Shown here: piece by piece, positions 17,911 to 49,176 of the stretch
How positions within the stretch are numbered: position 1 is the stretch's first letter
Layout of the letters: each line of letters begins with the position of its first letter
NCBI GenBank assembly: GCA_027858735.1
Contig: JAQICC010000370.1
Location: 1-53,407, forward strand
Length of the DNA: 53,407 nucleotides
From: Salinivirgaceae bacterium
Lineage (GTDB): Bacteria; Bacteroidota; Bacteroidia; Bacteroidales; SZUA-534
Direction: 5' to 3'
Notes under the pieces: model-generated
What the model was told of the DNA's origin: nothing
The model's input: the letters and a program-made list of their open reading frames with translations, nothing else
The model's database searches: none
Made by a program: the position numbers and the translations under genes

Positions 17911-19155
17911 ATGTTAATAGAAAAATATTCATTTGGAACTGGTGATCGCTTTGGGAAAGAAGGGAAAGCACAATTAGCAGCAATTCAGGAAATTAATAAA
18001 TTAGGATTTAATGTTGTTCCGGTTTGGAATAAAAGCTACCGAGAGCATACAATTGTTAAAACAACGCAAACTTCAGTTGCTAATGAGGCCTCCGAGGCTG
18101 TTAAAGCCAATGCATATGATGGTAATTATTATGTAGATGCCGATCATATTAGCATGGCTATTGTAGATCAGTTTGTTGATTTTAGCAATTTTTTTACCAT
18201 TGATGTGGCGCATTTTATTGGTCAAAAAGCTAATGACACAGAAAAGATTGCATTTATTAAGAATCATGCTAAATACATTGGCGAATTTTTAATACCTGGT
18301 ATTGATGAAAAATTTGATGTAAGCGAAGAATTTTTGGGGGTAGTAGCCGATAATTATCTTAATGCAATTAAAGAGGTGAAAACCATTTACGATCATATTG
18401 TATCAAAAATAGGTGCTGATAATTTTATACCTGAAGTATCGATGGATGAGTGTGAAATAGCCCAGTCACCGTTAGAATTATTTTTTATTTTGGCAGAATT
18501 AAAGCGTTTGGGTGTTGAAGTTCAGACTATTGCACCAAAATTTACGGGGTTATTTGCAAAAGGTGTAGATTATATTGGCGATGTTGATCTTTTTGCCTTA
18601 GAGTTTGAACAAGATGTAGCTGTAACGCTGTTTGCTATAAAAGAATTAGGTTTGCCAACTAGCCTAAAATTGAGTGTGCATAGTGGAAGCGATAAATTTG
18701 GTATTTATCCAGCTATGAGAAAGGCCATTACTAAATTAGATGCAGGTATTCACGTAAAAACTGCCGGAACCACATGGTTAGAAGAAGTAATTGGGTTAGC
18801 TCAAGGGGGGGGAGAAGGTTTAGTCATTGCCAAAGAAATATATGCAAAGTCGATGGCTCGATTCGATGAACTAACAGAACCATATGCAACGGTTTTGGAT
18901 ATTAAAAAAGCTGATTTGCCTTCAATTGATCAAGTAAATTCATGGACTAGTAAACAGTTTTCTGATGCTTTAACACACAACCAGACATGTGCTGATTATA
19001 ATTCTAGTTTTAGACAACTCATTCATGTGGGATATAAAATTGTGGTTGAAATGGGTGATAGGTATATGGTCGCTCTAGATATATATCGTGATATTATAGA
19101 AAAGAATGTTACATACAATATACTCCAACGACATCTGAAATTACTCTTCGTTTGA
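17911..19155 (+). CDS. uxaE: Tagaturonate/fructuronate epimerase (UxaE family)
   Basis: This 414-residue cytoplasmic protein matches the UxaE family, which interconverts D-tagaturonate and D-fructuronate, so that galacturonate and glucuronate degradation can share steps. Shared blocks with the Thermotoga enzyme, from memory, include GTGDRFG at the start, DADHI, EVSMDE with a following SP pair, LKLSVHSGSDKF, HVKTAGT and RQLIHVGY. The conserved acidic and histidine residues in DADHI and HSGSDK are likely metal ligands. Compared with the Thermotoga protein of about 480 residues, it lacks an N-terminal stretch of about 80 residues. Its own promoter and a strong terminator frame it as a single-gene unit upstream of the HTCS regulator. 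Confidence 0.83.
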   Translation: MLIEKYSFGTGDRFGKEGKAQLAAIQEINKLGFNVVPVWNKSYREHTIVKTTQTSVANEASEAVKANAYDGNYYVDADHISMAIVDQFVDFSNFFTIDVAHFIGQKANDTEKIAFIKNHAKYIGEFLIPGIDEKFDVSEEFLGVVADNYLNAIKEVKTIYDHIVSKIGADNFIPEVSMDECEIAQSPLELFFILAELKRLGVEVQTIAPKFTGLFAKGVDYIGDVDLFALEFEQDVAVTLFAIKELGLPTSLKLSVHSGSDKFGIYPAMRKAITKLDAGIHVKTAGTTWLEEVIGLAQGGGEGLVIAKEIYAKSMARFDELTEPYATVLDIKKADLPSIDQVNSWTSKQFSDALTHNQTCADYNSSFRQLIHVGYKIVVEMGDRYMVALDIYRDIIEKNVTYNILQRHLKLLFV

Positions 19156-27632: not shown

Positions 27633-27645
27633 AAAACTTATTAAT

Positions 27646-32600: not shown

Positions 32601-32756
32601 GTTAACGGTCAAGAGGTTAGTAGGGTAGCATTGGGAACAGTAAATGCAGGTATGCATAGCTTTACTCATAATACAAGCGATCTTAAATCAGGTATTTACT
32701 TATATCAATTGATTTCAAAAGATTTAGTGGGTACAGGTAAAATTGTGAAACAATAG
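29607..32756 (+). CDS. Large T9SS-secreted protein: tandem duplicated domain, beta-sandwich, beta-helix-like domain
   Basis: This 1049-residue protein has a signal peptide (ending near VGA, 19-21). Two copies of a ~235-residue domain (about 35-272 and 278-514) follow, very similar to each other, including shared blocks KREVDSA, DYMTWFYDYLLVNVDTF and EGCVLMARWEAG. Then comes a cadherin-like beta-sandwich (about 525-625). A region of about 640-960 looks like the DUF4957/DUF5123 pectate-lyase-like right-handed helix often found in pectin loci. A T9SS sorting tail (VSVYPNPF through KSGIYLYQL) closes it. Placed directly after susD, where SusE-like surface glycan-binding proteins usually sit, it is most likely a pectin-binding protein or an unrecognised lyase. 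Confidence 0.75.
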   Translation: MKKSFLLLIALVLTGVMTVGAQTFSQVTSTLNLGSVLYMTNGSADSDGVLFDQKVIDDLTEAGYDLTQGYPGEGGVISVPELNAYDLVVIGRNTGSGDFKLKDDWAEVEAPVLTLSGYIVRNSRLNIVNSGSLKREVDSAMISNKDRITKAKISNADDFVFNGIPVVDGKMDYMTWFYDYLLVNVDTFEATSNGKVLASIVDAENSTAEGCVLMARWEAGKETYEGSGTTPKGYRSYMQIGADDKVTPKTINYAQYTDASFQLLCNEMNFLIHTSKDVQYFVNEGNVDADSKLLDQQVLDDLAAAGYTNVTKTYPGEAGAISPVELSQSDLIVVGRNVGSGDFKLKDDWAKIEAPVLFLSGYIVRNSRLNIVNSGSLKREVDSASVDNKDRITKALIAEAADPAFTGVKMDGGKMDYMTWFYDYLLVNVDTFNATSNGKILASIVDAEKSAAEGCVLMARWEAGVETYEGSGTTSAGYRSYLQMGADDKATPVKNYNYSQYTDASFKLLINEMSYLTSTYSAPTVEISKDATLASITVSAGTLTPDFAADNLNYTVELAEGTTEVPTVTAVAINEFATVEQTDAETVPGNTVIRVTAQDEATLITYIVSFTVAGGDPEDVVEPGTGTLDLAVMSATDGDTLILANGGQYDILSPLAIDKKLTIIAEEIPALPALENMPIISNMFLSTQVFGLKTNCDLTLIGINVDALGGSFIFDPMQDSNQVVNLYVNRCRLHNTTNDIFNDDGSATNNITLGKLWVRNTFVYDNGSGHGFYTKNMVSNGSDWKFENITMWNLGQQFNWARALGGDQTQKIVYDHITGHNLSTSSDNKELFGNDEKTGGADELPAKANMAIEFKNNIMSTQGGTNEASLIFKNTDGNHEVTINNNVLFAVKPMANLGTITEADNMIDVDPQFADADNLDFTIGNADLYTAADDGKIIGAVYWHPDFVDDFNDVTSIKDLKGSNAALAVSVYPNPFNNEIKFSTELTTKGELTLRILNVNGQEVSRVALGTVNAGMHSFTHNTSDLKSGIYLYQLISKDLVGTGKIVKQ
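29709..31150 (+). repeat. Two in-gene copies of a ~715-bp domain repeat
   Basis: Copies at about 29709-30424 and 30439-31150 encode the duplicated domain. Stretches of near-identical DNA (for example around 30116-30175 and 30846-30905) show that the copies are recent or kept alike by gene conversion. Confidence 0.8.
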
Positions 32757-32866: not shown

Positions 32867-34294
32867 ATGAAACACTTTATCTATTTATTTTTTTTAGTAT
32901 TTTTTGCTTGTCAAAATTCAAATACCAAGGTAAATAATTTAGCAGATGATAATGGGCTACTTGAGAACCCATGGGAATACATGGACTCAATTTTAAATGT
33001 TATTCAGCCAATTATTTTTCCAGATACGGTTTTTAATATTAGCTATTTTGGTGCGGTTGGCGATGGTAAAACTGATTGTAGCGAAGCCATTAAAAATGCT
33101 ATTGTAGCATGTCATGATGCTGGTGGGGGTAAAGTGGAAATTGATTCAGGTAGCTGGCTCACGGGACCAATAAAACTTAAAAGTAACGTAAATCTTCATA
33201 TCAACGAAGGTGCAACGGTGTTGTTTACCACCGATAAAAGTAAATATTTACCCAATGTTCATACGCGGTTCGAAGGAATGGAATGTATGAACTATTCTCC
33301 TCTAATTTATGCTTATAAACAAAGCAATATAGCCATCACCGGAAAAGGTAAAATTGATGGTCAGGGTGAAGTATGGTGGCATTGGAAAGGACAAAGATTT
33401 AAGTCGGTTGACCAGGAATCTACTACAAATTTAGATGAATCTCAAAATGATGATGTAGCATTGCTAACACAAATGGTTGAGGATAATATGCCTTTAGAAC
33501 AAAGAGTATTTGGCGAAGGTCATTATTTAAGATCGAGTTTTATTCAACCCTATTTATGTACGAATGTACTTATTGAAGGAATTACCATTGTAAGAGCACC
33601 TATGTGGATTATACATCCGGTGCTAAGCGAAAATGTTACGGTTCGTAAGGTGAAAATTGAATCGCTAGGACCAAATAATGACGGCTGCGACCCAGAGTGT
33701 TGCACCAATGTTTTAATTGATAGTTGCTATTTTAATACAGGCGACGATTGTATTGCCATTAAATCAGGAAGAAATAACGATGGAAGACGTGTTGGTGTTC
33801 CTAGTAAAAATATAATTGTTCAGAATTGCATGATGGTTGAAGGCCATGGAGGTGTGGTTATGGGAAGTGAAATTTCCGGTAACGTATCGCATGTTTTTGT
33901 CAAGAATTGTATAATGGACAGTCCCAATTTAGAAAGAGCCATTCGAATAAAATCAAACACTTTAAGAGGTGGAACAGTAGAGCATATCTACGTTAGAGAT
34001 ATTGAAGTTAAACAGGTTAAAGAGGCTGTACTTAAAATTAATATGCATTATGGTATTTATGCTCAAAGTACCGGAAATAATATTCCTATAGTTCGAAATG
34101 TTTATATGGAAAATGTAAATAGTCAAAAAAGCAAATACGGTTATTGGATTAAAGGAATTGAAAATCATCCGGTTAGTGGTATTTATTTGAAGAATTGTTC
34201 ATTTAATAATGTTGATGAAAAATATTTTTCTGAAAATGCTGGAGAAGTAAGCATGAATCGAGTAAAAATAAATGAAGAATATATAAGTAATTAA
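32867..34294 (+). CDS. Polygalacturonase, glycoside hydrolase family 28
   Basis: This 475-residue lipoprotein (FFAC at about 12-15) hydrolyses galacturonan chains. It has a right-handed beta-helix and the four GH28 blocks: NND with D272 (family usually NTD), GDD with D293 and D294, GHGG with H327, and RIK (R360-K362). The opening FGAVGDGKTDCSEAI is typical of family members with the pectate-lyase-like N-cap. A lipoprotein anchor suggests periplasmic or surface action on imported oligomers. The gene follows a terminator after the susCD-side transcript and is followed after 70 bases by GH105, so it probably heads its own operon. Exo versus endo action cannot be told. Confidence 0.93.
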   Translation: MKHFIYLFFLVFFACQNSNTKVNNLADDNGLLENPWEYMDSILNVIQPIIFPDTVFNISYFGAVGDGKTDCSEAIKNAIVACHDAGGGKVEIDSGSWLTGPIKLKSNVNLHINEGATVLFTTDKSKYLPNVHTRFEGMECMNYSPLIYAYKQSNIAITGKGKIDGQGEVWWHWKGQRFKSVDQESTTNLDESQNDDVALLTQMVEDNMPLEQRVFGEGHYLRSSFIQPYLCTNVLIEGITIVRAPMWIIHPVLSENVTVRKVKIESLGPNNDGCDPECCTNVLIDSCYFNTGDDCIAIKSGRNNDGRRVGVPSKNIIVQNCMMVEGHGGVVMGSEISGNVSHVFVKNCIMDSPNLERAIRIKSNTLRGGTVEHIYVRDIEVKQVKEAVLKINMHYGIYAQSTGNNIPIVRNVYMENVNSQKSKYGYWIKGIENHPVSGIYLKNCSFNNVDEKYFSENAGEVSMNRVKINEEYISN

Positions 34295-34364: not shown

Positions 34365-35582
34365 ATGAAAAAGTTCATATGCATTTTGTTTGCATTTATA
34401 ATACTAGCAATAGCTTGTAATCCTACAGTGAAAAATAATAAACAGGCATCTGTACCCTTTAATGACAAAATAGATTATTCTATTTTAATGGGTGAAACCT
34501 TGCTAAAAAATTATCCTGATTTATGGAAGATTGAAGATAGAAAAGAACCCAAATGGAGTTATACTTATGGGTTAGTTTGCTTGTCGATGCTAAAACTTTG
34601 GGAAGAGACCGGAAATGAAATGTACTATAATTATGCCAAGGCTTATGCCGATGCATTAATTGATGAAAATGGAAACATAAGAACTTATGTAAGAGAGGAT
34701 TATAATATTGATAAAATTAATTCAGGTAATATTTTATTTACTCTTTATAATAAAACGGGTGATAATCGCTATAAAATCGCCATGAACTCGCTAAGAAGTC
34801 AACTAAAAGAACATCCTCAGACAGAGATGGGTGGTTTTTGGCATAAACAACGCTACCCGCATCAAATGTGGTTAGATGGGGTTTATATGGGGGCTCCATT
34901 TTACACACAATATGCCCAAGTAAATAATGAAACTGAAAGTTTTAATGAAATTGCATCCTGGATAAAGAACGTGGCACAAGTAACCCATGACGAAAAAACC
35001 GGATTGTTATATCATGCATGGGACGAATCGAAAGATCAAGCATGGTCGGATAAAGAGACGGGTTGTTCTCCAAATTTTTGGGGTCGCGCTATGGGATGGT
35101 ATGTAATGGCTTTGGTTGATGTATTAGATTATTTTCCAAAAGATCATTCAGATTATAATGAGATTGTAAATATTACGAAAAACCTTGCAGCTGCCATTAT
35201 TAAATATCAGGATGCAGAAACGGGTACTTGGTATCAGGTTTTAGACCAAGGCAAGCGTGAAGGTAACTATTTGGAAGGATCGGCTAGCGCAATGTTTTCA
35301 TATTTTCTTTTAAAGGCAATAAACAAGGGCTATATCGATAAAGAAACCTATTTAAGTGCTGCCATTAAAGCCTACCAAGGCATGGTGGCAACCTTAGTAA
35401 AAGTTGCCAGCGATTCAACTTTAATAATTTCGCCTGTATGTGCAGTCGCTGGCTTGGGCGGTAATCCATATCGCGATGGTAGTTACGAATATTATGTGAA
35501 TGAACAATTGCGCGATAATGATCCTAAAGCTGTAGGACCCTTTATTATGGCGGGAATAGAATATAAAAGATTAGCAAAGTAG
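34365..35582 (+). CDS. Unsaturated glucuronyl/galacturonyl hydrolase, family GH105
   Basis: This 405-residue protein has a lipoprotein signal (IACN at about 16-19) and an (alpha/alpha)6 barrel. The catalytic aspartate is expected at D171 in MWLDGVYMG, with HAWDES and FWGRAMGWYVMALVD as further conserved blocks, and GTWYQVLD, EGSASAMFSY near the C-terminal half. GH105 enzymes remove the unsaturated uronic acid left at the end of oligomers by pectate or rhamnogalacturonan lyases, releasing 5-keto-4-deoxyuronate. This fits the two lyases just downstream. A hairpin terminator follows it. Confidence 0.93.
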   Translation: MKKFICILFAFIILAIACNPTVKNNKQASVPFNDKIDYSILMGETLLKNYPDLWKIEDRKEPKWSYTYGLVCLSMLKLWEETGNEMYYNYAKAYADALIDENGNIRTYVREDYNIDKINSGNILFTLYNKTGDNRYKIAMNSLRSQLKEHPQTEMGGFWHKQRYPHQMWLDGVYMGAPFYTQYAQVNNETESFNEIASWIKNVAQVTHDEKTGLLYHAWDESKDQAWSDKETGCSPNFWGRAMGWYVMALVDVLDYFPKDHSDYNEIVNITKNLAAAIIKYQDAETGTWYQVLDQGKREGNYLEGSASAMFSYFLLKAINKGYIDKETYLSAAIKAYQGMVATLVKVASDSTLIISPVCAVAGLGGNPYRDGSYEYYVNEQLRDNDPKAVGPFIMAGIEYKRLAK

Positions 35583-35690: not shown

Positions 35691-38204
35691 ATGATACATA
35701 GAAGCATTTTATTTCTAAGTTTTCTTATACTCAGTATTGGTATAAGTCATTCGCAAGTAATTTTTGAAGCTGAGGATGCGGAATATTCTTCAGGGAAAAC
35801 AGATAACAAACATGCCGGATTTACAGGCGATGGTTTTGTTGATACCGAAAATACTATGAATGAATGGATAGAGTGGACTATTTATTCATATAAAGAGGTG
35901 AAAGATTCTGTTAGCTTTCGGTATGCTTTGGGTAAAGAGGAAAATAGAGCCATGCAGGTTTATATAAATGGAACCTTAACAGACACCATTGATTTTGATT
36001 TCACCACAGAATTTACAAATTATATTTACAAATCGACTTTAGGAAATATTGTAGAAGGAGTAAATACCATAAAACTTGTAAGCATTACAGAAAATGGGGC
36101 TCCAAATCTAGATCATTTAACGGTAAAAACTGATATTGGTCGTTATTTTAAAATCACTTCAACGATTGCAGGTTCAGGCACGGTTACAATTACACCAGAG
36201 ACTGACTCAATTAAATACGGTACACGGGTAACTCTGCTTGCCAATAATAACCCAGGTTATACCTTCAATAATTGGTCGGGTAATATTGATAATGTAAAAA
36301 ATCCTTTGAGTTTTACAGTTGATAATAATTATTCCATTACTGCAAATTTTATAAATAGTATTCCGGCGTTCCCGGGTGCTGAAGGTTTTGCAGCTAAAAC
36401 CACGGGTGGCAGAGGGGGAGCTGTTTACGAAGTTACCAACCTTAACAATTCTGGGGCAGGAAGCTTACGTGATGCGATCCAAAAGTCGGGCAACCGAACC
36501 ATAGTTTTTAGAGTATCGGGTACTATTGAGTTAGAATCAAGTCTGTCCGTTAATAATGGTAACCTTACCATTGCAGGTCAAACCGCTCCAGGCGATGGAA
36601 TAACATTGTCGGGCTTTACGCTTAAAGTAAATGCCGATAATGTAATTATTCGTTACATTCGATCAAGACTGGGTGATAAAAAACTGGCGCAAGACGATGC
36701 AATGAATGGGTACAATAATTCAAATATAATAATTGATCATTGCAGTTTGGGTTGGTCAGTTGATGAAGTAACCTCGTTTTACGATAACCGGAAATTTACG
36801 ATGCAATATTGTATGGTAAGTGAAGGCCTGTATAATTCGGTTCACGATAAAGGACCCCATAGTTATGGCGGTATTTGGGGCGGAAAAGGGGCTACTTTTC
36901 ATCATAACCTATTGGCTCATAATGTAAGTCGTAATCCTCGTTTCTGTGGTACACGTTATTCTAATCAGCCAGAACTTGAATTAATTGATTTTAGAAATAA
37001 TGTAATTTTTAATTGGGGTAAAAATAGCATATATGGTGCCGAAGGTGGAAGCTATAACCTGGTAAATAATTATTATAAATATGGTCCTGCTACTTCGTCA
37101 GATGTTAGAAGTAGAATTATTGCACCAAATGCTGATGATGGTTCAAATGAGCAGTCAGCAGGTGTTTGGGGAGTGTTTTATGTTGGTGGTAATTTTGTTG
37201 ATGGCAGTGAAACTGTAACTGAAAGTAATTGGGCAGGTGTTCATGCTTCAGGTGTTGCGTTAAGTACAATAAAGTCGGAAACTGAGTTTACCGTAGATAG
37301 CGTAACTACGCATTCGGCTAAAGTAGCATATGAACATGTTTTAGCCCAAGCAGGTGCTGTACTTCCGTTTAGAGATGAGGTTGATTCAAGGATTATTCAA
37401 GAAACACTGATGAGAAAAGTAACTTTTGGAGATACTTTTGGTGCGGGAATGGGAATTATTGATTCGCAGGAAAGTGTGGGAGGTTGGCCAGAACTTAGAA
37501 GTACAACTCCTCCAGTAGATGCCGATAAAGACGGAATGCCTGATGAATGGGAGTTGCAAAACAACCTTAATCCCAATGATGCGGAAGACCGAAATGGAGA
37601 TGCAAATGGCGATGGATATACGAACCTTGAAAACTATTTAAACGGGCTTGTTGCTGATTATACTTATTTAATCAGACCCATAAATTTTGAAGCTGAATTG
37701 ATTAACAACCAAGAGGTAGATTTAAATTGGACTGACGTTGTTGAAAATGAAGATGCCTTTTTGTTGGAAAGAAAAGAAGGTAATTCGGCATATGAAGAAA
37801 TCGCTAATTTACCGGCGAATACTACAAATTATAAGGACGCCGTAACCAATCCAGCTGTATATAGCTATCGATTACGTGCTGTAAATACAAAAGACTCTTC
37901 ATTTTATACCGATTCAGTAGCTATAACAATTGTTACAGATATCGATAAACAACAGGCTAATAATTCAATAGTGGTATATCCTAATCCATTTTCAAGTTCT
38001 ATAAATATTGAATTTGACCAAAATACACTTATGGTTACCCAAATAAAACTTATTGATTTGATAGGAAATAAACTTTGGGTTCAAAATAACATAACTCAAA
38101 ATGGAACTGCAATTAATGTTGAAAATTTACATGAAGGAATATATTTTATTATAATATTAACACCAATAGATACCTATGTGAAAAAAATAATAAAGAATAA
38201 TTAA
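35691..38204 (+). CDS. Multidomain pectate lyase (PL1-type) with CBM and T9SS tail
   Basis: This 837-residue secreted protein has a signal peptide (ending near SHS, 19-21). A CBM6/35-like carbohydrate-binding module (about 23-148, FEAEDAEYSSG) and a bacterial beta-repeat module (about 152-220, NPGYTFNNWSG) follow. The PL1-type lyase domain (about 224-610) begins FPGAEGFAAKTTGGRGG and includes TIAGQTAPGDG, VIIRYIRSR and NPRFCGTRY. Next come a calcium-binding thrombospondin-3-like segment (DADKDGMPDEWELQ), a fibronectin-like domain and a T9SS tail (VYPNPFSSS). It cleaves galacturonan by beta-elimination outside the cell. T9SS would deliver it to the surface. Whether it prefers methylated pectin is unknown. 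Confidence 0.9.
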   Translation: MIHRSILFLSFLILSIGISHSQVIFEAEDAEYSSGKTDNKHAGFTGDGFVDTENTMNEWIEWTIYSYKEVKDSVSFRYALGKEENRAMQVYINGTLTDTIDFDFTTEFTNYIYKSTLGNIVEGVNTIKLVSITENGAPNLDHLTVKTDIGRYFKITSTIAGSGTVTITPETDSIKYGTRVTLLANNNPGYTFNNWSGNIDNVKNPLSFTVDNNYSITANFINSIPAFPGAEGFAAKTTGGRGGAVYEVTNLNNSGAGSLRDAIQKSGNRTIVFRVSGTIELESSLSVNNGNLTIAGQTAPGDGITLSGFTLKVNADNVIIRYIRSRLGDKKLAQDDAMNGYNNSNIIIDHCSLGWSVDEVTSFYDNRKFTMQYCMVSEGLYNSVHDKGPHSYGGIWGGKGATFHHNLLAHNVSRNPRFCGTRYSNQPELELIDFRNNVIFNWGKNSIYGAEGGSYNLVNNYYKYGPATSSDVRSRIIAPNADDGSNEQSAGVWGVFYVGGNFVDGSETVTESNWAGVHASGVALSTIKSETEFTVDSVTTHSAKVAYEHVLAQAGAVLPFRDEVDSRIIQETLMRKVTFGDTFGAGMGIIDSQESVGGWPELRSTTPPVDADKDGMPDEWELQNNLNPNDAEDRNGDANGDGYTNLENYLNGLVADYTYLIRPINFEAELINNQEVDLNWTDVVENEDAFLLERKEGNSAYEEIANLPANTTNYKDAVTNPAVYSYRLRAVNTKDSSFYTDSVAITIVTDIDKQQANNSIVVYPNPFSSSINIEFDQNTLMVTQIKLIDLIGNKLWVQNNITQNGTAINVENLHEGIYFIIILTPIDTYVKKIIKNN

Positions 38205-38301: not shown

Positions 38302-39414
38302 ATGAAATCCGCTCTTCTATTATTAATTGTACTTACAGCAGCTGTTGTTTTTGCTCAAAGCAAAAAGCAAGATGAATCAGCCGACTACCTTAATTTCAGC
38401 TGGAAAAAAGTGGCTACTAAAATGCAGCCAGAATGGTATGCTACAAATGAAGCAAAATTGGTGGCAGAAAATGTATTGCTATGCCAAAAGGATATTGGCG
38501 GTTGGGCAAAAAATGAACCCTACCATCATATATATTCCGAAACAGAGAAAGAGCAGTTCCAACAAAGTAAAGCTGAAATTGGAGGTACTTTCGACAATGG
38601 AGCAACCATAAGAGAATTACGTTTTCTAGCTAAATTACACTTAAATTTTAATGATAATAAGTATAAAAAAGCTTTTAAAAAAGGGCTCGATTATATTTTT
38701 ATGTCCCAATATAAAAATGGAGGTTGGCCTCAGTTTTACCCTGTTCGGAAGGGAGAAAGTGTGACTTATTCAGCACATATAACCTATAACGATAATGCAA
38801 TGATAAACATTATGTGGTTTCTGAAGGACATAACTAGTGATAACCCTGAATTTGCTTCGTTTCAGTTTAATGAAGAATTTAAAGCGCGGGCTCAAAATGC
38901 ATTTAATAATGGAATTCAATGCATTCTTAAAACACAAATTATAGTACATGGAATACCAACTGTTTGGTGCGCCCAGCATAACGAAATAACTTTGGCTCCA
39001 GCCAAAGCACGAAAATATGAATTAGCCTCATTTAGTGGTTCCGAATCGGTAGGGTTAGTACATTTTTTAATGAGTTTGGATAATCCTTCTGTTGCAATTG
39101 TATCTTCTGTAAATGGTGCAATTCAATGGTTCGAAGGTCACAAAATTGAGGGTATAACACGTGTAAAAAAACTGAATGAGTATGAGCAAATGGATTTGGT
39201 AGTAGTACCAGATAGAAATGCTTCCCCATTATGGGCTCGTTTTTATGATTTACAAACAGGGAAACCATTTTTTTGCGATCGTGATGGAATAAAGAAAAAT
39301 ACCTTGGCTGAAATTAGCTATGAGCGACGAAACGGTTATCGTTGGTATACCAATTCTCCTTCTAAAATATTAGAAAATCAGTCAGAATGGATGAAAAAAT
39401 ATAATATTAATTAA
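38302..39414 (+). CDS. Pectate lyase, polysaccharide lyase family 10
   Basis: This 370-residue protein has a signal peptide (ending near FAQ, 17-19) and no sorting tail, so it probably works in the periplasm. PL10 hallmarks are present: DIGGWAKN, NGGWPQFYP, ITYNDNAMIN with the expected catalytic aspartate, GIPTVWCAQHNE and the ASFSGSES block. The fold is an (alpha/alpha)3 barrel. PL10 enzymes cleave unesterified polygalacturonate by beta-elimination with calcium. With the PL1 lyase upstream and GH105 it forms a lyase route in this locus. It is followed after 34 bases by the CE12 esterase gene. Confidence 0.93.
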   Translation: MKSALLLLIVLTAAVVFAQSKKQDESADYLNFSWKKVATKMQPEWYATNEAKLVAENVLLCQKDIGGWAKNEPYHHIYSETEKEQFQQSKAEIGGTFDNGATIRELRFLAKLHLNFNDNKYKKAFKKGLDYIFMSQYKNGGWPQFYPVRKGESVTYSAHITYNDNAMINIMWFLKDITSDNPEFASFQFNEEFKARAQNAFNNGIQCILKTQIIVHGIPTVWCAQHNEITLAPAKARKYELASFSGSESVGLVHFLMSLDNPSVAIVSSVNGAIQWFEGHKIEGITRVKKLNEYEQMDLVVVPDRNASPLWARFYDLQTGKPFFCDRDGIKKNTLAEISYERRNGYRWYTNSPSKILENQSEWMKKYNIN

Positions 39415-39448: not shown

Positions 39449-40186
39449 ATGAAGTCTTTTTCTAAAATTATTGTTATAAGTTTTTTATTGCTGGCAACAG
39501 TAAGTTGCAAAAAAACACCTGTTTTGTACATGATAGGTGATTCTACAATGGCCAATAAAGAAAAAATGTACTTACCAGAACGTGGTTGGGGGCAGCTTTT
39601 ACCTCAGTTTTTTACTAATGGAATAATTGTTGAAAACCATGCAAAAAATGGAAGAAGTACACGCTCATTTATCTATGAAGGTAGATGGGATTCTGTTTGC
39701 AATAAATTGCAGTCAGGTGATTTTGTTCTAATGCAATTTGGTCATAACGATGGTAGTGAAAAGAAAATAGGAAGGCATGCTACTCCTGAAGAATACGAAT
39801 ACAACTTGCGCAAATTCATACACGAAACAAAACAAAAAAGAGCATTTCCAATTCTAGCAACTCCAGTTGCCCGTCGTCGTTTCGATGAAAATAGCATGTT
39901 TTACGATACCCATGGGGTATACCCCGATGTTGTGCGGAAAATTGCAAAAGAAACAAATGTACCTCTTCTTGAGATGCATACTTTAAGTATTGATCTTTTT
40001 ACACAACTGGGTGAAGAAGAAACAAAAAAAATATTTCTTCATATAGCCCCAAATGTATACGATTCATTACCTGAAGGCAAGATCGATGATACTCATTTTT
40101 CAGAATTTGGAGCTATGGAAATTGATAAACTTGCAGTGATTGAAATAAAAAATAAAGTGCCGGAATTGGCTAAATATTTAAAATAA
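39449..40186 (+). CDS. Rhamnogalacturonan acetylesterase-like SGNH hydrolase, family CE12
   Basis: This 245-residue lipoprotein (VSC at about 18-20) is an SGNH-fold esterase. Block I is IGDSTMANK with nucleophile S32, block II is around NGRSTRSF, block III is QFGHND, and block V is DDTHFSE with D213 and H216. Length and blocks match CE12, which removes acetyl groups from rhamnogalacturonan or pectin and exposes the backbone to other enzymes. Its stop codon shares a base with the ATG of the GH43 gene (TAATG at 40184-40188), a sign of translational coupling. Confidence 0.9.
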   Translation: MKSFSKIIVISFLLLATVSCKKTPVLYMIGDSTMANKEKMYLPERGWGQLLPQFFTNGIIVENHAKNGRSTRSFIYEGRWDSVCNKLQSGDFVLMQFGHNDGSEKKIGRHATPEEYEYNLRKFIHETKQKRAFPILATPVARRRFDENSMFYDTHGVYPDVVRKIAKETNVPLLEMHTLSIDLFTQLGEEETKKIFLHIAPNVYDSLPEGKIDDTHFSEFGAMEIDKLAVIEIKNKVPELAKYLK

Positions 40187-41793
40187 TGAATCTATTGAAG
40201 CCTATTTTTTTTATAATAGTTTTTATACTGTTGCTTATTGGTTGTTCACAAAAAAGTAGCAATAATTCAGTAAGTGAAATTATAACTTATACAAATCCCA
40301 TTTTGCATCTCGATTATTCCGATCCTGATGTGGTACAAGTAGGTTCAAAATATTACATGACCGCTTCAAGTTTTAACTGCATTCCGGGTTTACCTCTATT
40401 GGAGTCTGAAAATTTGGTGGATTGGGAACTTATTGGATACGCCATTAAGCAACTGGAGCCCGATTCTGTATTTTCAAAACCACAACATGGTAATGGTGTT
40501 TGGGCACCTGCCATTCGTTACCATAACAACATGTTTTACATTTATTATGGCGATCCTGATTTTGGAATATTTGTAGTTACAGCCAAAGATATTCATGGCC
40601 CATGGAGTAAGCCTTTGTTAGTAAAAGACGGTAAAGGTTGGATTGACCCTTGTCCGTTTTGGGACGAGGATGGAACAGCTTGGTTGGTACATGCTTGGGC
40701 TGGTAGTCGTGCAGGAGTTAAAAGTACGCTTACGCTTCATAAAATGAGTGCCGATGGAAGAGAATTGCTTGATAATGGAATTATTGTTTTTGATGGACAT
40801 CATGAGCATAAAACCGTTGAGGGGCCAAAAATGTACAAACGAAATAATTACTACTATATTTTCGCACCTGCTGGTGGAGTTACTGAAGGTTGGCAATTGG
40901 CTTTGCGTTCAAAAAATGTAACAGGGCCGTATGAAGTTGAAAAAGTACTTGATCAAGGAGCTACAAACATTAACGGCCCACATCAAGGAGCATGGGTTGA
41001 TGCATTTGATGGCAGTTCTTGGTTTTTCCATTTTCAGGATAAAGGAGCTTTTGGACGAATAGTGCATCTGCAACCCATGGAGTGGATAAATGATTGGCCA
41101 GTAATTGGCAAAGATACTGATGGCGACGGTATTGGTGAACCTGTTTTACAGAACGAAATAGTTATTCAGAATGCACGTAGGCAACAAATAAGCGACAGCT
41201 ATTCCGATGAATTCAATACTCCCGATTTAAATTTGAACTGGCAATGGCACGCCAATCCAAAGGCAAAATGGGGGGCTCCTACAGCACATTTGGGTTACTT
41301 GAGATTAAACGCCATACCGTTTGCTGAAAGAAATAGTTTATGGGGTGTTCCTAATTTATTGATGCAGAAATTTCCTTCCAATAACTTTATTGCCACAACA
41401 AAAATTGACATCTTTTTACATGAAGAAGGTGATTTGGCGGGCTTGCTAATAATGGGCTATGATTATGCCTATTTGGCTATTGAAAAGCACAATGATGTAA
41501 ATACGCTTGTTTACAGAACTTGCAGTGCTTCTGATAAAGGGGGCAAGGAAAATACAATTCTCAACATACCTTGGAATGATTCTACGGTGTACTTTAAGAC
41601 AAAAGTGGACAGTATGGGTAATTGTCAGTATAGCTATAGTGCTAATGACGAAAACTACACCACAATTCCAGAATCATTTCTGGCTTTACCGGGGAAATGG
41701 ATAGGTGCAAAAGTGGGACTTTTCTGCATAAGCGATACCCATACTAATGATGCAGGATATATAAATGTAGACTGGTTTCGGTTTGGTAATTAA
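40186..41793 (+). CDS. Glycoside hydrolase family 43 lipoprotein with beta-sandwich C-terminus
   Basis: This 535-residue lipoprotein (IGC at 18-20) has a five-bladed propeller GH43 domain (about 35-320). The three carboxylates are expected at D46 (DPDV), D154 (GWIDP) and E212 (EGPK). A C-terminal concanavalin-like domain (about 335-535) is typical of beta-xylosidase-type GH43 members. The family covers arabinofuranosidases, xylosidases and exo-galactanases; in this pectin locus, removal of arabinose or xylose side chains is most likely. It overlaps the CE12 stop by one base and continues the same operon into the DUF4861-like gene. The subfamily cannot be fixed by eye. Confidence 0.9.
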   Translation: MNLLKPIFFIIVFILLLIGCSQKSSNNSVSEIITYTNPILHLDYSDPDVVQVGSKYYMTASSFNCIPGLPLLESENLVDWELIGYAIKQLEPDSVFSKPQHGNGVWAPAIRYHNNMFYIYYGDPDFGIFVVTAKDIHGPWSKPLLVKDGKGWIDPCPFWDEDGTAWLVHAWAGSRAGVKSTLTLHKMSADGRELLDNGIIVFDGHHEHKTVEGPKMYKRNNYYYIFAPAGGVTEGWQLALRSKNVTGPYEVEKVLDQGATNINGPHQGAWVDAFDGSSWFFHFQDKGAFGRIVHLQPMEWINDWPVIGKDTDGDGIGEPVLQNEIVIQNARRQQISDSYSDEFNTPDLNLNWQWHANPKAKWGAPTAHLGYLRLNAIPFAERNSLWGVPNLLMQKFPSNNFIATTKIDIFLHEEGDLAGLLIMGYDYAYLAIEKHNDVNTLVYRTCSASDKGGKENTILNIPWNDSTVYFKTKVDSMGNCQYSYSANDENYTTIPESFLALPGKWIGAKVGLFCISDTHTNDAGYINVDWFRFGN

Positions 41794-41833: not shown

Positions 41834-42700
41834 ATGAAAAAGTTTATATTAATTTTTTCGGCTATTATAACAGTCAATGCGCATTGTCAAAATATGACTG
41901 ACATTAGTTTAAAATGGAAAGATAGTGTTAACCAAGAATCCGTTATTGAATCGGAAACAGGGAATCTGTATAAAAAAGTTGAACACCACGGACCTGCTGT
42001 TGAAAACGAATGGATGGGTTTACGTTTATATTTCGATCACAAAGTATCCATTGATGTATATAACAAAACACGCCCTGGACTTGAGTTGGAAGCCGCAGCA
42101 TGGTATCCAACCGTAGAACAGCAAAAAGAAGGTTGGGGGGCCGATTTATATAAGGTAGGTTCTACTGTGGGTTTAGGTGGCGTTAGGTTATGGGACTATG
42201 AAAAGAATGAGCAAGTGCTGCTCGATCCGGTAAAAAATCGCAGAGCCCGTGTACGTAAAGAAGCCAATACTTCATACATGGAAATGTTATCAGAGGGTGT
42301 GGCTTACATGGGCGATACCATTGATGTGCTGGTTCGTGTTACCGTATTTTCAGGCATTCGTGAAGCTAAAGTAGAGGCTTTTGCCTTTAGTAGCAAACCG
42401 GTTCGTTTTTATACCGGTATCAACTATCACGATTCAACCCAAACAAAACAAACCGATAATTTTATTTGCTCGTGGGGAATTCATCCGGAAGATGTTGCCG
42501 CATTCCGTTTCAATATTGGTGCTGCAATATTATTTAACCCCAATGATTTTGAAAAAATTCAAAAATCAGAAAAGCAATACGAATTGATTTCAAAACCTAC
42601 CAAATATATTGAAACATGGATTACTTCAGCCTGCGAAAAAGAAGTGGGATTGAATTCTTATGATGCTTTTGTAAAGTACATTGAAACAATTAAAAAATAG
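41834..42700 (+). CDS. DUF4861-like secreted protein
   Basis: This 288-residue protein has a signal peptide (ending around NAHC, 14-18). It resembles DUF4861, a family found in pectin and related polysaccharide loci of Bacteroidota with no settled activity. Visible blocks are NEWMGLRLYFDHK, GWGADLYKVGSTVGLGG and VRLWDYEKNEQV. It is shorter than DUF4861 proteins I remember (roughly 400 residues), so it may be a compact branch. It lies between the GH43 and the CE8-like genes with short spacing and is probably co-expressed. A role in lyase-product processing or in de-esterification is possible, but nothing in the sequence shows it. Confidence 0.6.
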   Translation: MKKFILIFSAIITVNAHCQNMTDISLKWKDSVNQESVIESETGNLYKKVEHHGPAVENEWMGLRLYFDHKVSIDVYNKTRPGLELEAAAWYPTVEQQKEGWGADLYKVGSTVGLGGVRLWDYEKNEQVLLDPVKNRRARVRKEANTSYMEMLSEGVAYMGDTIDVLVRVTVFSGIREAKVEAFAFSSKPVRFYTGINYHDSTQTKQTDNFICSWGIHPEDVAAFRFNIGAAILFNPNDFEKIQKSEKQYELISKPTKYIETWITSACEKEVGLNSYDAFVKYIETIKK

Positions 42701-42704
42701 TGAT

Positions 42705-43943
42705 TTGAAGAAGGCTTTTTTTTTTCTGCTATTTGTTTGCAACATATTAATTGTTGAAGGAAACGAAGTAAGCGACACGCTTTTTGTATCAAAAAATAGC
42801 ACTGTCGATTTTCCTACTATTGCCGATGCTATTGCATCATTGCCTATGTATTGCTATCATCGTGTAGTAATTTATGTAAGAAATGGTAGCTATAACGAGA
42901 AAATTAAGATAGACAGAGATTATATTAGTCTTATTGGTGAAAGTCGGGAAAATACGCGGATTGAGTTTAATCAGTTGCGCGAAAATTGGGTCAACAATAA
43001 AGATGATATTGGACCGGCTGTTGTAAATATTTATGCCGATGATATTGTAATAAAAAACCTTACCATTGAAAACACCCAACCTGAAATTGGTCCACATGCC
43101 TTTGCTATATACGGAACAGGTACCCGAACCATATTAAAAAACTGTACGGTGTTAAGCAAGGGAGGCGATACAGTATCGCTGTGGGACTACAAAACCGGAA
43201 TGTATTATCATGATTCGTGCCACTTTCAAGGAGCAGTTGATTTTGTTTGCCCTAGAGGATGGTGTTTTATTTCGAACTCAACATTTTATGAAGTAAAAAA
43301 TACAGCAGCCATTTGGCATGCTGCGCCAGCCGACCAGAAGCAGAAGTTTGTACTGCAAAATTGTGATTTTCAAGGAGCTGATAGCTTTTATTTGGCGAGG
43401 CATCATTACGAAGCCCAATTTTATTTTTTAAATTGTTCGTTCCCCAATTTAATGCAAAATAAAAGTATTGAGCATGTAGTGTATAAAGATAAGCCTGAAA
43501 AAAACAGACCCTATATATATGGCGATCGCTATTATTTCTATAAGTGCTCGCGCACCGGAGGTTCTTATTCATGGTTTGCTGATAATCTTGAAAACTGGCC
43601 TGATTCAGTAACACCAAACATCATTACTCCCCAATGGACTTTCGATGGAAAATGGAATCCAACCGATACGACAATGCTTGAAGTATTAAAAAAAGAAGTG
43701 CATGAAAACTCAATATTTCTTTGGTTTAGCGAGCTGGTTATGCCTGTTGGAAATGTTGTGATAGAAACTGAATCGGGCAAACAAGTAAAATACTTTTTAG
43801 GAAGTGGGCGCGATAGACTTGAGTTTAAAACAGCTGATACGCTTACCCTTGAAGAAATAAATAAACCCATGAAAATTATTAGTGGAAAAATCCGGAATAT
43901 TCAAGCAAGTGTTCAACCACGATTTTTAGCTCAGCCATTTTAA
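42705..43943 (+). CDS. CE8-like pectinesterase with altered active-site glutamines
   Basis: This 412-residue protein starts at a TTG four bases after the preceding stop; that start gives a clean signal peptide (MKKAFFFLLF onwards). A TTG at 42681 would add eight residues and overlap the previous gene. It is a beta-helix of the CE8 type. Numbering from the longer form, the aspartate pair is kept (D163 in GGDTV, D187 in AVDFV) and an LARHH segment at about 238-242 (R240) replaces LGRPW. The two oxyanion glutamines of classic pectin methylesterases are changed, with HAFA instead of QAVA and GGDT instead of YQDT. It may act on another ester or have lost activity. Confidence 0.75.
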   Translation: MKKAFFFLLFVCNILIVEGNEVSDTLFVSKNSTVDFPTIADAIASLPMYCYHRVVIYVRNGSYNEKIKIDRDYISLIGESRENTRIEFNQLRENWVNNKDDIGPAVVNIYADDIVIKNLTIENTQPEIGPHAFAIYGTGTRTILKNCTVLSKGGDTVSLWDYKTGMYYHDSCHFQGAVDFVCPRGWCFISNSTFYEVKNTAAIWHAAPADQKQKFVLQNCDFQGADSFYLARHHYEAQFYFLNCSFPNLMQNKSIEHVVYKDKPEKNRPYIYGDRYYFYKCSRTGGSYSWFADNLENWPDSVTPNIITPQWTFDGKWNPTDTTMLEVLKKEVHENSIFLWFSELVMPVGNVVIETESGKQVKYFLGSGRDRLEFKTADTLTLEEINKPMKIISGKIRNIQASVQPRFLAQPF

Positions 43944-43955
43944 AATACAACTTTT

Positions 43956-46397
43956 ATGAGAAACCTTATACTTTCAATATTATTTTCTTTACTCACTTTA
44001 TTATCCAATGCTCAAGACACAGCTTCTGTTTTTTGGGAATTATCATTAAATACAACTCAAAATTTTCTTACAAACGGAGCCGTTATAGGTGAAAATCAAA
44101 GCGCTTCAGATCAATACAAGATATATGATTACGGCGGAACTTCGTTAAGTCAGAGTGCTTATGCTAAGGGTGGTGGATTTGGTTTTTGGCCAAACGAGAT
44201 GGCGGAGAATCAAAGTCGTTATTGCGAATTTAAAGCATCTCCTCGCAATGGTGTTTCATTCCAATTAACTGAAGTTTCTTTGCGGGTAGGTGGCAAAGGC
44301 TCAAATAAAATTATGGTTAATATTTTTTATTCAACCGACAATTTTGAATCAAGAACAGCTATCGCTGAAAACATTGTGCTACCGCTTGATGAGCTGAAAG
44401 ATATACATATTGATTTGTCCGATAAAAATATTGAGGTTGAAGAACAGAAACCTGTGAGTCTGCGTGTTTATCCTTGGTTATTCGGAGGTATTGATGGCGA
44501 TGCGTATTTTAATATTCGCGATGTTGAGTTAGTGGGACTAATTGAAGGCGTAGTTATTCCTGATTTGCCTCAGGTTCAAACGCTTGGAGTTGATGAAATT
44601 TCAACTCAAAGCGTGTTATTTAAAGGGAATGCCATTGATGATGGTGGGGTGGCAATAGATTCTTTAGGTGTTGTATATAGCACAATCGCGAATCCTGACA
44701 TATCAAGCTCTGTAGCCTTAGGAAATGCTCAAAAAGGTTTTTTTCAAACTAAAATTGAGGGATTGACAGTTAGCACCCGCTATTTTGCTAAAGCTTTTAT
44801 AGCAAATGGAGCAGGTATTACTTATGGTAATGAAATTGAATTTACGACTTTGGATAAGCTGTCAGTACCCGGTGTATCAACAACTAATGTCAGTCATATT
44901 AGCAATAAAGGTGCGGTTGCATATGGCCAGGTATATTTTGACGGAGGTCTTGAAGTTACTCTAACCGGATTCTGTTATAGTAAGCAAGTATCTCCAACCT
45001 TAAGCAATCTGGTTGCTAGTGAAGGTGTCGGTTTAGGTGAATACAATGCTTATTTAAACGAAGTTGAAGCCGGCCAAACTTATTATGTCAGGGCTTTTGC
45101 TGAAAATAGCGAAGGTGTTGGCTATGGTAATCAATTAGAATTCACTACTCCTGCTACATTACCCGATATAAATATAGTGGTTGATAAGAATGGGAATGGT
45201 GATTATACAAGCCTTCAAGAAGCTTTTAATTCCGTTCCATACAATTACATGGGTAATATTTATGTAAATGTGAAGAAGGGGATTTACGACGAAAAGGTTA
45301 TCCTTAAAAATGGACAAATTAATGTGCACCTCATTGGAGAATCACGGGACAGTACCATTATTCGTTGGGATGATTATTCAGGAAAAGTGGTAGACGGTGT
45401 TACTCTTGGAACTTCTACATCGCAAACCATTGCCATTGATGCCGATGATTTTATTGCGCAGAATATTAGTTTTCAGAATACATCCCAAGTCGCTCAGGCA
45501 GTAGCATTACGCGTGAAAGGCGACCGAATGATTTTTCAGTATTGTAAGCTGTTAGGTTTTCAAGATACCTATTATACCTGGGGTGTCGGTCGTGTTTACA
45601 ATGAAGATTGTTATATTGAAGGCACGGTTGACTTTATTTTTGGTAGTTCCATAGCCATATTTGAAAAATGTGAGATTAGGAGCCTTCGCAATTCACCAAT
45701 AACAGCTGCTGCAACGCCAGAAAATTATAAGTTTGGTTACGTTTTAATGAACAGTAAACTGGTTGCCGATGAAACTATTAAAGGAACTACACTAGGTCGT
45801 CCTTGGAAACCCTATGCGCAAACAGTATATATTGAAACAAAGCAAGGTAAACATATTCGACCAGAGGGTTGGTTAGAATGGAACGGAAATAATAATCACC
45901 TAACGGCTTATTATGCCGAGTATAACTGCTCAGGTGAAGGTTATGTTCCGGATATGCGTGTTGAGTGGTCGCACCAATTAACTGAGGAACAAGCCAAAGA
46001 ATATACCATTGAAAATATTTTTAACAAAAAATCGGCCTCGCCCGCATATTACTATAATTGGGTTCCTGATTTTGAACGAGTTGATGTACCATTAGATACA
46101 ATGCCAATTGATACCACTGTTGTAAGTAATTTACAGGTGCAAAGTTGCAAGGTTACCATTTATCCGAATCCAAGCAGGAGTGAAACAAATTTTAGTTATG
46201 AATTGCGAGATAATTCTTATGTGGATATGGCCATTTACACTTTGGATGGGCGTTTGGTTGAACAGCTAATTAAAGATAATCAATTGTCAGGCAAGCATAA
46301 AATTACATGGAGTCCGGCGAATACAAAATCGGGTATTTACCTGTGTAAAGTTCTAATTAATAATCAAAATATAAGTCAGCTATTACTTATAGAGTAG
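43956..46397 (+). CDS. Pectin methylesterase (CE8) with fibronectin-like modules and T9SS tail
   Basis: This 813-residue protein has a signal peptide (SNA, about 17-19), an N-terminal beta-sandwich-like module of unknown family (about 22-190), and two fibronectin-like modules (about 200-395). The CE8 catalytic domain spans about 400-700 with all classic residues: Q514 in QAVALR, Q536 and D537 in FQDTYY, D559 in VDFIFG, and R615 and W617 in LGRPWK. A T9SS tail (IYPNPSRSE to SGIYLCKVL) follows. It removes methyl esters from pectin, producing galacturonate blocks that the PL10 and GH28 enzymes can cut. Anchoring by T9SS places it at the surface. It follows the other CE8-like gene by 12 bases. 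Confidence 0.93.
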   Translation: MRNLILSILFSLLTLLSNAQDTASVFWELSLNTTQNFLTNGAVIGENQSASDQYKIYDYGGTSLSQSAYAKGGGFGFWPNEMAENQSRYCEFKASPRNGVSFQLTEVSLRVGGKGSNKIMVNIFYSTDNFESRTAIAENIVLPLDELKDIHIDLSDKNIEVEEQKPVSLRVYPWLFGGIDGDAYFNIRDVELVGLIEGVVIPDLPQVQTLGVDEISTQSVLFKGNAIDDGGVAIDSLGVVYSTIANPDISSSVALGNAQKGFFQTKIEGLTVSTRYFAKAFIANGAGITYGNEIEFTTLDKLSVPGVSTTNVSHISNKGAVAYGQVYFDGGLEVTLTGFCYSKQVSPTLSNLVASEGVGLGEYNAYLNEVEAGQTYYVRAFAENSEGVGYGNQLEFTTPATLPDINIVVDKNGNGDYTSLQEAFNSVPYNYMGNIYVNVKKGIYDEKVILKNGQINVHLIGESRDSTIIRWDDYSGKVVDGVTLGTSTSQTIAIDADDFIAQNISFQNTSQVAQAVALRVKGDRMIFQYCKLLGFQDTYYTWGVGRVYNEDCYIEGTVDFIFGSSIAIFEKCEIRSLRNSPITAAATPENYKFGYVLMNSKLVADETIKGTTLGRPWKPYAQTVYIETKQGKHIRPEGWLEWNGNNNHLTAYYAEYNCSGEGYVPDMRVEWSHQLTEEQAKEYTIENIFNKKSASPAYYYNWVPDFERVDVPLDTMPIDTTVVSNLQVQSCKVTIYPNPSRSETNFSYELRDNSYVDMAIYTLDGRLVEQLIKDNQLSGKHKITWSPANTKSGIYLCKVLINNQNISQLLLIE

Positions 46398-46427: not shown

Positions 46428-49121
46428 ATGTTAAGAAATAAAATAATTCTTGTTGTACTAGCAATGGTGCTAATAGGTACTAGCTTAATAGGCCAAAATG
46501 TTAGTATTAATGAATTTATGGCAGTTAATAAATCTATATTACAAGATGAGGATGGTGACTATTCTGATTGGATTGAATTGTACAATTCAGGTACAGCGAA
46601 TGTAAGTTTGAAAGGGTGGTATTTAACTGACGATAAAAATTTGCCATCAAAATGGATATTTCCGGATATTGCTATTCCTGCAAAAAATTATCTCATAGTT
46701 TATGCATCTGGAAAAGATAAATCTACTTCAGAACTTCATGCCAATTTTAAACTGAGTGGGGATGGTGAATATTTGGCATTAATGAACCCTGGGGCAAATC
46801 AAATAATATCGGAATATGAACCTGAGTATCCGGTGCAATACGCTGATATTTCTTATGGAAGTTTTAATTCTGATATAATGTATTTTGCAAATGCAACACC
46901 AGGTGCAGAGAATGTAAGAAGTTTATTTTTAGTACCTCCCATTTTTACTGTACAGCATGGGTTTTACGAAAAGGCATTTGATTTGGAGTTAATAAAATCA
47001 TCGGATGAAATAGAAATATACTATACTTTGGATGCCAGTACACCTAGCAATACCAACGGAACACTGTATTCGACTCCGATAAACATTGCAACAACAACAG
47101 TAATACGTGCAGTGTCGTACAATAGTACCAATGGTTTAAGCACTACGGTAACTTCAAGTTATATTTTTGCAGAAGATGTTAAAAGCCAATCCAATGATCA
47201 ACCTGGTTATCCAACTACTTGGTTGACTCCTATTCATGGGACAGATGATTATGATAGAATTCCTGCTAATTACGATATGAAAGCAGATTTTATTAATACA
47301 TCTGAAGTGAGTGATGTGCTTACTGAATCGTTAAAAAGTTTGCCTGTTATTTCTATCGTTACTGATATTGATAATTTATTTTCAGAAAGTACCGATCCCG
47401 ATTTAGGAGGTATTTACACCTATAATGGCGAACCCGATGGCCCCACTATAAACTTAGAATACCATTTAGGCCGGGGGTGGAAAAGAGCTGCATCTGTTGA
47501 ATATTTTAATTCTGATGAGCTTGATGGTTCTCTTGATTTTCAGGCTAACTGTGCCATAAAAATACATGGCGGGGCTACCAGAACAAGGGCGAAAACGGAG
47601 AAGCATTCTTTTAAAATAGGTTTTAAATCGGAATATGGGCCTTCAAAACTCGAAGAGAAAGTGTTTGGTAAAGGTTCTCCTAAGAAATATGATTGGCTTA
47701 TTTTACGTGGTGGATTTGCACCCCGTTTAGGGTTACAAGTGAAGGACCCATGGGCAAAGCTTACTATGCGAGATATGGGGCAGTATGCTTCATATAACAA
47801 ATTTGTACATGTATTTATTAATGGCTTGTATTGGGGTATGTACAACTTAAGTGAGCGTATGGACGAAAATTGTATGAGGGATAATTTAGGAGGCAGTGCT
47901 GACGATTACGATATTGTAAAAGATTATTATGAAGTTGAGGCCGGTGATACTAGGGCTTGGGATAAGCTGGTTGCCTACGCTAAAGACGAAATTGATGATC
48001 CTGCAAATTATCAATACTTATTAGGTAATAATTCTGATGGTACACCAAATGCAGCCTACGATAAATTACTTAATGATGAGAATTTATTGGATTACATGAT
48101 TATGAATATTTATGCAGGTACTGGCGACTGGGACCATCACAACTGGGCTGCGGCTCGTAGAAAAACAAATTCGGAAGGTTTTTATTTTTTAACTTGGGAT
48201 GCTGAAGGCGTTTTTAAAGATGTGAGTGTTGGTGATATAGTTAATAAAAGTAAGGATAACCGTCCTACAGGTGTTTTTGCAGATTTGCTTATGAATGAGC
48301 AATTTAAAAATAAATTTATTGGTAAAGTAAATATGCACTTTTTTGAAGAAGGAGCATTAACTCCCCAACCTTGTTTAGAGCGCTATGAAAAAATACTGGG
48401 GGCAATTGATAGCGCTTTGATTTGCGATCAGGCTAGATGGGTATATGATGAAAATGATATTTGGAATACAAGCTACCACGATTTCATATATGACTATTTT
48501 CCACCCAGAACGGAGCGTGTGTTTACTCAGCTTGTGAGCGAAGGTTTATATCCAATTGTTGATTTCCCTAGATTTAGTAATGGCAACAATACTTTTGCCG
48601 ATACTGTCGATCTGTTTATGAATACCAGCTCGGAAGGTGAAATATTGTACACCCTTGATGGTACCGATCCGGGTTATTTTAAACAATCTAAATCAGAATC
48701 TATTTTTGTTTATGATAACATGCCACTGCCATTGGAAATTGGAACCAATATTGTAACTGCAAGAGTAAAGCAGGATAGTCTTTGGTCGAGACTAATAACA
48801 AAGAAATTTACAGTAAAAAGTACAAGCACCACCACTTTAGCTAATCGTTTTACCGGGCCGGAAGAGAATTTACATAGCTATCCAAATCCAATTGAAAACG
48901 ATGTGCAAATTGCATTTTCGTTATTGGAACCAGCTCAAATTAGTATTCGGGTATATAATGTGTTTGGAACTGAGGTAGCTTCTGTACTGGATGAATATAT
49001 AAGTGCTAATGAGTATGCTTTAAACTGGAATGCTGGTAGCCTTTCTCCTGGAATGTATATTTGTGTTTTTGAGAATAAAACAAAGGCAACCATTAGTAAA
49101 GTGAAATTGATTAAAAAATAA
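46428..49121 (+). CDS. CotH-kinase-like T9SS-secreted protein with lamin-tail domain
   Basis: This 897-residue protein has a signal peptide (ending near LIG, 20-22). Next are a lamin-tail domain (about 25-130, SDWIELYNSG), a chitobiase-type C-terminal module (about 165-245, EIYYTLDASTPS), a CotH-type domain (about 305-650), a second chitobiase-type module (about 715-800, EILYTLDGTDPG) and a T9SS tail (SYPNPIEND). In the CotH domain, IHGGATR, WDHHNW and FLTWDAEGVF are the recognisable blocks; the aspartates are candidate metal ligands. CotH proteins phosphorylate spore-coat proteins in Bacillus. In Bacteroidota they are common but uncharacterised extracellular proteins. Its place at the end of the pectin operon is the notable point. 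Confidence 0.85.
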   Translation: MLRNKIILVVLAMVLIGTSLIGQNVSINEFMAVNKSILQDEDGDYSDWIELYNSGTANVSLKGWYLTDDKNLPSKWIFPDIAIPAKNYLIVYASGKDKSTSELHANFKLSGDGEYLALMNPGANQIISEYEPEYPVQYADISYGSFNSDIMYFANATPGAENVRSLFLVPPIFTVQHGFYEKAFDLELIKSSDEIEIYYTLDASTPSNTNGTLYSTPINIATTTVIRAVSYNSTNGLSTTVTSSYIFAEDVKSQSNDQPGYPTTWLTPIHGTDDYDRIPANYDMKADFINTSEVSDVLTESLKSLPVISIVTDIDNLFSESTDPDLGGIYTYNGEPDGPTINLEYHLGRGWKRAASVEYFNSDELDGSLDFQANCAIKIHGGATRTRAKTEKHSFKIGFKSEYGPSKLEEKVFGKGSPKKYDWLILRGGFAPRLGLQVKDPWAKLTMRDMGQYASYNKFVHVFINGLYWGMYNLSERMDENCMRDNLGGSADDYDIVKDYYEVEAGDTRAWDKLVAYAKDEIDDPANYQYLLGNNSDGTPNAAYDKLLNDENLLDYMIMNIYAGTGDWDHHNWAAARRKTNSEGFYFLTWDAEGVFKDVSVGDIVNKSKDNRPTGVFADLLMNEQFKNKFIGKVNMHFFEEGALTPQPCLERYEKILGAIDSALICDQARWVYDENDIWNTSYHDFIYDYFPPRTERVFTQLVSEGLYPIVDFPRFSNGNNTFADTVDLFMNTSSEGEILYTLDGTDPGYFKQSKSESIFVYDNMPLPLEIGTNIVTARVKQDSLWSRLITKKFTVKSTSTTTLANRFTGPEENLHSYPNPIENDVQIAFSLLEPAQISIRVYNVFGTEVASVLDEYISANEYALNWNAGSLSPGMYICVFENKTKATISKVKLIKK

Positions 49122-49135
49122 GAAAGACAGAATAA

Positions 49136-49176
49136 AATGGGTGTTCTCAATAATTTATGAGGACACCCATTTTTTA
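49136..49176. terminator. Bidirectional terminator between CotH-like gene and uxaA
   Basis: A 14-bp stem with one wobble (49136-49149 with 49157-49170) is flanked by T-rich sequence to the right (TTTTTTATA) and A-rich sequence to the left. It lies between two converging genes and could stop transcription from both. Confidence 0.75.

Follow-up and report, generated by a model that had tools for sequence, protein, structure and literature searches.

At the end of a pectin utilisation operon in the window, the 53,407-nucleotide stretch of Salinivirgaceae DNA analysed here, lies a gene for a CotH-type protein. The reading that we favour, with moderate confidence, is that of a surface protein with an intact catalytic and metal pocket, which is co-expressed with the pectinases as the product of the operon's last gene. 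The protein would be exported by Sec and T9SS, and its core, a CotH-type protein-kinase-like domain, would be carried on LTD and Fn3/chitobiase-like modules. Most likely, it would serve as an optional surface accessory that binds or modifies the substrate, the cell surface or proteins secreted along with it. Its gene would have come from a large stock of CotH paralogues and been recruited in this lineage to the pectin locus. We infer that the protein is exported, that its gene is co-transcribed with the pectinases, that catalysis is retained and that the role is accessory. A special role of the protein in pectin use is not supported.

The open reading frame encodes 897 aa (Table 1), and the architecture of the original prediction, in which LTD, chitobiase-like and CotH domains are joined to a T9SS tail, was recovered with Pfam and NCBIfam. 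Two overlapping profiles, CHB_HEX_C_1 (residues 177-241, 55.8 bits) and Fn3_assoc (residues 189-245, 62.4 bits), both exceed their Pfam gathering cut-offs, and the CotH domain (PF08757) scores 84.8 bits (E 1e-23; cut-off 23.8). The type A tail also exceeds the NCBIfam profile's own cut-off, and no dockerin module was found in the Pfam scan of the protein. Because of the domain E-values and the match to CotH-fold structures, a chance match is excluded, and the CotH-type reading of the gene is confirmed as genuine and correct. The signal peptide is probably cleaved before Q23 (MLRNKIILVVLAMVLIGTSLIG followed by QN). The Gln at the likely new N-terminus fits the Q-rule of Bacteroidetes (PMC5837995). 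Since SprA and PorU are encoded in the source genome, T9SS export is plausible; the full set of T9SS cargo features is present, namely the Sec signal, the C-terminal type A sorting domain and a T9SS in the genome.

Table 1 Features of the pectin operon and of the CotH-type gene (residue numbers refer to the 897-aa protein)
Feature	Position	Strand	Basis
SusC	24657..27632	+	profile match
SusD	27619..29550	+	profile match
DUF4957/DUF5123 protein with T9SS tail	29607..32756	+	profile match
GH28 polygalacturonase	32867..34294	+	Pfam
GH88/GH105 unsaturated glycuronyl hydrolase	34365..35582	+	Pfam
CBM35 + pectate lyase + T9SS tail	35691..38204	+	Pfam and structure match of middle part
PL10-type pectate lyase	38302..39414	+	Pfam, NCBIfam
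GDSL esterase (probably CE12-like)	39449..40186	+	Pfam; CE12 assignment from context
GH43 with GH43_C2	40186..41793	+	Pfam
DUF4861 protein	41834..42700	+	Pfam
Pectinesterase-like (CE8-like) protein, matching profile positions 3-205 of 298	42681..43943	+	Pfam
CE8 pectinesterase with T9SS tail, 30 bp upstream of CotH gene	43956..46397	+	Pfam
CotH-fold T9SS surface protein, 897 aa	46428..49121	+	Pfam domains, model, structure match
N-terminal Sec signal peptide MLRNKIILVVLAMVLIGTSLIG	46428..46493	+	sequence read by eye, N-terminal helix in model
Lamin Tail Domain (LTD), residues 23-128, 54.8 bits	46494..46811	+	Pfam, above gathering cut-off
Chitobiase/hexosaminidase C-terminal / Fn3-associated domain, residues 177-245	46956..47162	+	Pfam
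CotH kinase-fold domain, residues 377-675	47556..48452	+	Pfam and structure match
D567 codon, equivalent of catalytic Asp228 of B. subtilis CotH (QNFDG motif of 5jd9)	48126..48128	+	conservation and profile alignment
N572 codon, aligned with Asn of the CotH catalytic loop	48141..48143	+	conservation and profile alignment
D591 codon, equivalent of CotH Asp251 (WDxD/E motif)	48198..48200	+	conservation and profile alignment
T9SS type A sorting domain, residues 818-892	48879..49103	+	Por_Secre_tail (Pfam, 37.2 bits), NCBIfam TIGR04183
Intrinsic terminator closing the operon	49134..49173 (about)	+	hairpin and T-run, dG -23.2 kcal/mol, z -7.4

An AlphaFold model (mean pLDDT 82), built on an alignment of 29 sequences, gives the protein a CotH protein-kinase-like fold, as a prediction and not a solved structure. 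At the top of its PDB matches stand two entries of the CotH kinase of B. cereus, 5jda (E 1.2e-10, probability 1.00, TM by target 0.69) and 5jd9 (E 2.0e-10, TM by target 0.68), with 14% identity in the structural alignment. Searching the PDB with the single sequence returned no match; profile searches matched CotH. In the direct profile alignment, D567, N572, D591 and E593 fall on the motif set of 5jd9 and E476 on a conserved Glu. The Asp of QNFDG and the first Asp of WDYD lie 23 residues apart in 5jd9, the same spacing as between Asp228 and Asp251 in B. subtilis. Among the 29 relatives, which are 24-38% identical over the alignment, D591 is conserved in all, E476 in 28, and D567 and N572 in 27 each; the E593 column is Glu or Asp throughout, and R385 and K392 are kept in 25 and 22. 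With near-invariant columns and this alignment to 5jd9, the kinase site stood up to the inspection that the original prediction had proposed: D567, N572, D591, E593 and E476 are all retained. On the strength of this conservation, kinase action on proteins of the locus is possible.

The operon is a same-strand run with short gaps that starts with the SusC gene. The 30-bp gap between the CE8 and CotH genes and the strong terminator indicate that the CotH gene closes this SusCD pectin operon. The following gene lies on the opposite strand, and the predicted position at the end of the pectin enzyme train was thus upheld. Judging from this layout, the CotH gene is probably co-transcribed with the pectinases, and its GC content matches that of its neighbours. 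A UxaE gene at 17911 and a tagaturonate reductase gene at 50859 fit galacturonate catabolism. Two enzymes of the operon may be mentioned separately. The middle part of the CBM35 protein (residues 222-629), which has no Pfam match, resembles the solved pectate lyase 9buj (E 2.5e-78), and many pectin loci contain homologues of this protein at about 50% identity. The CE8-like protein aligns with no more than the initial two thirds of the pectinesterase profile, and its homologues (42-46% identity) recur in the pectin loci L115 and L117.

Conserved linkage of the CotH gene with pectin genes across relatives, as proposed originally, was not found in genomes that all come from outside the source organism's genus. 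No CotH gene was seen near CE8 homologues in 20 sampled stretches, nor inside any of 12 loci (11 genomes) with a related SusC and a GH28 gene (G217, G345, G167, G286, G522, G668, G483, G475 twice, G603, G637 and G446). A locus counted as such when a SusC homologue and a GH28 gene shared a contig and lay no more than about 30 kb apart; the positions were paired by hand. Since CotH is missing from both kinds of loci, the gene does not belong to the conserved content of pectin loci, and pectin-specific linkage was rejected. In the genome with the nearest SusC (G217, 52%), the closest CotH gene lies 66 kb from GH28, and in G631 a CotH fragment lies 2 kb from the SusC homologue, without GH28 there. 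Elsewhere, a CotH pair was observed on the other strand about 13 kb past the last GH28 gene of a pectin locus (G167:C1:1017070-1021432). The only other neighbouring pair of CotH and pectinase genes seen is in L170 (G073:C38:90000-108598), where CotH adjoins a PL10-like pectate lyase.

CotH genes are common in Bacteroidota (24 of 60 sampled genomes), and their surroundings are mixed. The best relative (L071; 39% identity over the aligned stretch) has as neighbours a second CotH-LTD-T9SS protein, a GH43-CBM6-T9SS protein, GH10, GH2 and GH97. In Prevotellaceae, the CotH loci L043-L045 adjoin GH51 and two of them also GH3; the CotH gene of L039 adjoins GH2, and that of L072 lies among housekeeping genes. 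The source genome itself holds 13 CotH genes (one split into two matches) in mixed contexts. Four of them, the window gene included, stand in different glycan loci; of 20 contigs sampled from the same genome, 3 carry SusC, SusD or GH markers, a purely descriptive comparison over contigs of varying length. Of the other three, one closes a SusC-SusD-GH13 run (L059), another is flanked by GH5 and GH81-type genes (L062), and the last precedes two GH81-type genes (L067). As a conserved arrangement, the starch-locus linkage of L059 was rejected. Homologues of the GH13 are widespread; coordinates were compared in 35 genomes that have them, and a nearby CotH gene was found in two (G486, about 1.3 kb; G462, about 15 kb), while L144 and L169 add one case each. 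Across the phylum, glycan genes were nearby in 7 of 40 CotH loci and, according to how strict the criteria were, in about 2-5 of 20 controls, with a small marker set partly drawn from CotH neighbours. No enrichment of CotH near glycan genes is therefore claimed, and the hint of repeated recruitment in the source genome fails in both the GH13 and the 40-locus samples.

Other features were seen in the course of these comparisons. Two Bacteroidales MAGs share a similar trio (L040, 2311-12094; L041, 848-10649) in which CotH accompanies a giant of about 1790 aa and a second protein of about 715 aa; in L040, the giant has no Pfam match and the second protein matches fasciclin. A DnaB helicase gene with intein and homing endonuclease domains is found in L072 (12534-15104). 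In L209 (G000:C365:1-20000), five consecutive same-strand ORFs match the hybrid two-component sensor of the window.

Several other readings must be weighed against an optional accessory. The CotH fold may act as a structural or adhesive module, that is, a pseudo-kinase scaffold or a carbohydrate or surface binder, like one of the roles proposed for the dockerin-CotH proteins of cellulosomes. The multidomain build with LTD and Fn3-like modules and the cell-wall binding or assembly roles speculated for cellulosomal CotH (PMC8665504, PMC12484212) speak for such a module. However, D567, N572 and D591 are near-invariant at 24-38% identity, which favours chemistry or ligand binding over bulk structure, and we consider this reading possible but doubtful. 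Somewhat less likely still is a passenger, a surface protein that has nothing to do with pectin and came to the operon end by happenstance. The unconserved linkage allows for a gene with no pectin role, the closest homologues lie in xylan-like, arabinoside or housekeeping surroundings, and glycan genes are not clearly more frequent at CotH loci than at control loci. Nevertheless, the short gap and shared terminator mean that the gene is probably induced with the pectinases, and three other CotH genes of the same genome also adjoin GH genes.

An active extracytoplasmic kinase, which would phosphorylate locus proteins or itself on the way out or once at the surface, in the manner of CotH acting on CotB and CotG, is unlikely. 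The catalytic residues are retained and conserved, and B. subtilis CotH is a proven kinase that is inactivated by substitution of Asp228 (D228Q) or Asp251 (PMC7821199). Against this reading, potential partners are not conserved, as judged from the CE8 and SusC+GH28 loci, and no published activity was found for any T9SS-tailed CotH. Moreover, export by Sec and T9SS takes the protein away from the ATP of the cytoplasm; none is expected beyond that compartment, and we know of no ATP supply that an exported product would meet. Very improbable is the wider idea that catalytically competent, T9SS-exported CotH proteins of Bacteroidota form a surface phosphorylation or transfer system for secreted glycan enzymes, repeatedly recruited to the ends of SusCD/GH loci (pectin here; the SusCD-GH13 and GH5/GH81 loci in the same genome). 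The absence of linkage in related pectin operons and the existence of cellulosomal counterparts make the gene look like an opportunistic recruit and not a new system, in line with the favoured reading of an optional accessory.

As it stands, the case is mainly one of sound annotation: the observation is real, is well described and concerns a protein of a kind already known. If the pocket were active outside the cell, the source of the phosphate donor would become the question, and a many-copy family of Bacteroidota would gain a testable function. If inactive, the gene would still show that a CotH-type surface protein can fall under the control of a pectin operon, in parallel to cellulosomal CotH.

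The role of such a protein had been put forward as new for glycan use. This is contradicted by the secreted CotH proteins, some with LTD and Fn3 modules, known from clostridial and anaerobic fungal cellulosomes (PMC6083626, PMC12484212, PMC8665504, PMC4711584). C. thermocellum secretes the cellulosomal Cthe_0239 (LTD, LTD, Fn3, CotH) and CseP (CotH-dockerin) (PMC6083626), and the cseP promoter is sigma-I6-dependent, as are those of xylanase genes and a scaffoldin gene (PMC4711584). In anaerobic fungi, CotH accounts for about 20% of dockerin proteins (PMC8665504), and structural or kinase roles of cellulosomal CotH have been discussed in a review (PMC12484212). No T9SS-tailed CotH within a SusCD operon turned up in the literature covered, mostly outside subscription journals.

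The window protein shares its fold and its catalytic Asp/Asn/Asp positions with the spore coat kinase CotH (B. subtilis; B. cereus 5jd9 and 5jda). In contrast to the latter, it adds Sec/T9SS signals, LTD and Fn3-like modules and lacks a spore and CotB/CotG partners. With Cthe_0239 and CseP, likened here by their published descriptions, it has in common a secreted LTD/Fn3/CotH architecture and plant-cell-wall degradation, but a dockerin and a cellulosome there are replaced by a T9SS tail and a SusCD locus here. CotH genes also adjoin Pel exopolysaccharide clusters (PMC7112168). Both they and the window gene lie beside a polysaccharide locus outside spores, although the Pel cluster is biosynthetic, with a poly-phosphate polymerase and DUF4956, whereas the window locus is degradative. 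The T9SS-tailed LTD-CotH proteins of other Bacteroidota, such as that of L071, are similar in architecture (up to 39% identity), but, unlike the window gene, theirs lie outside pectin operons.
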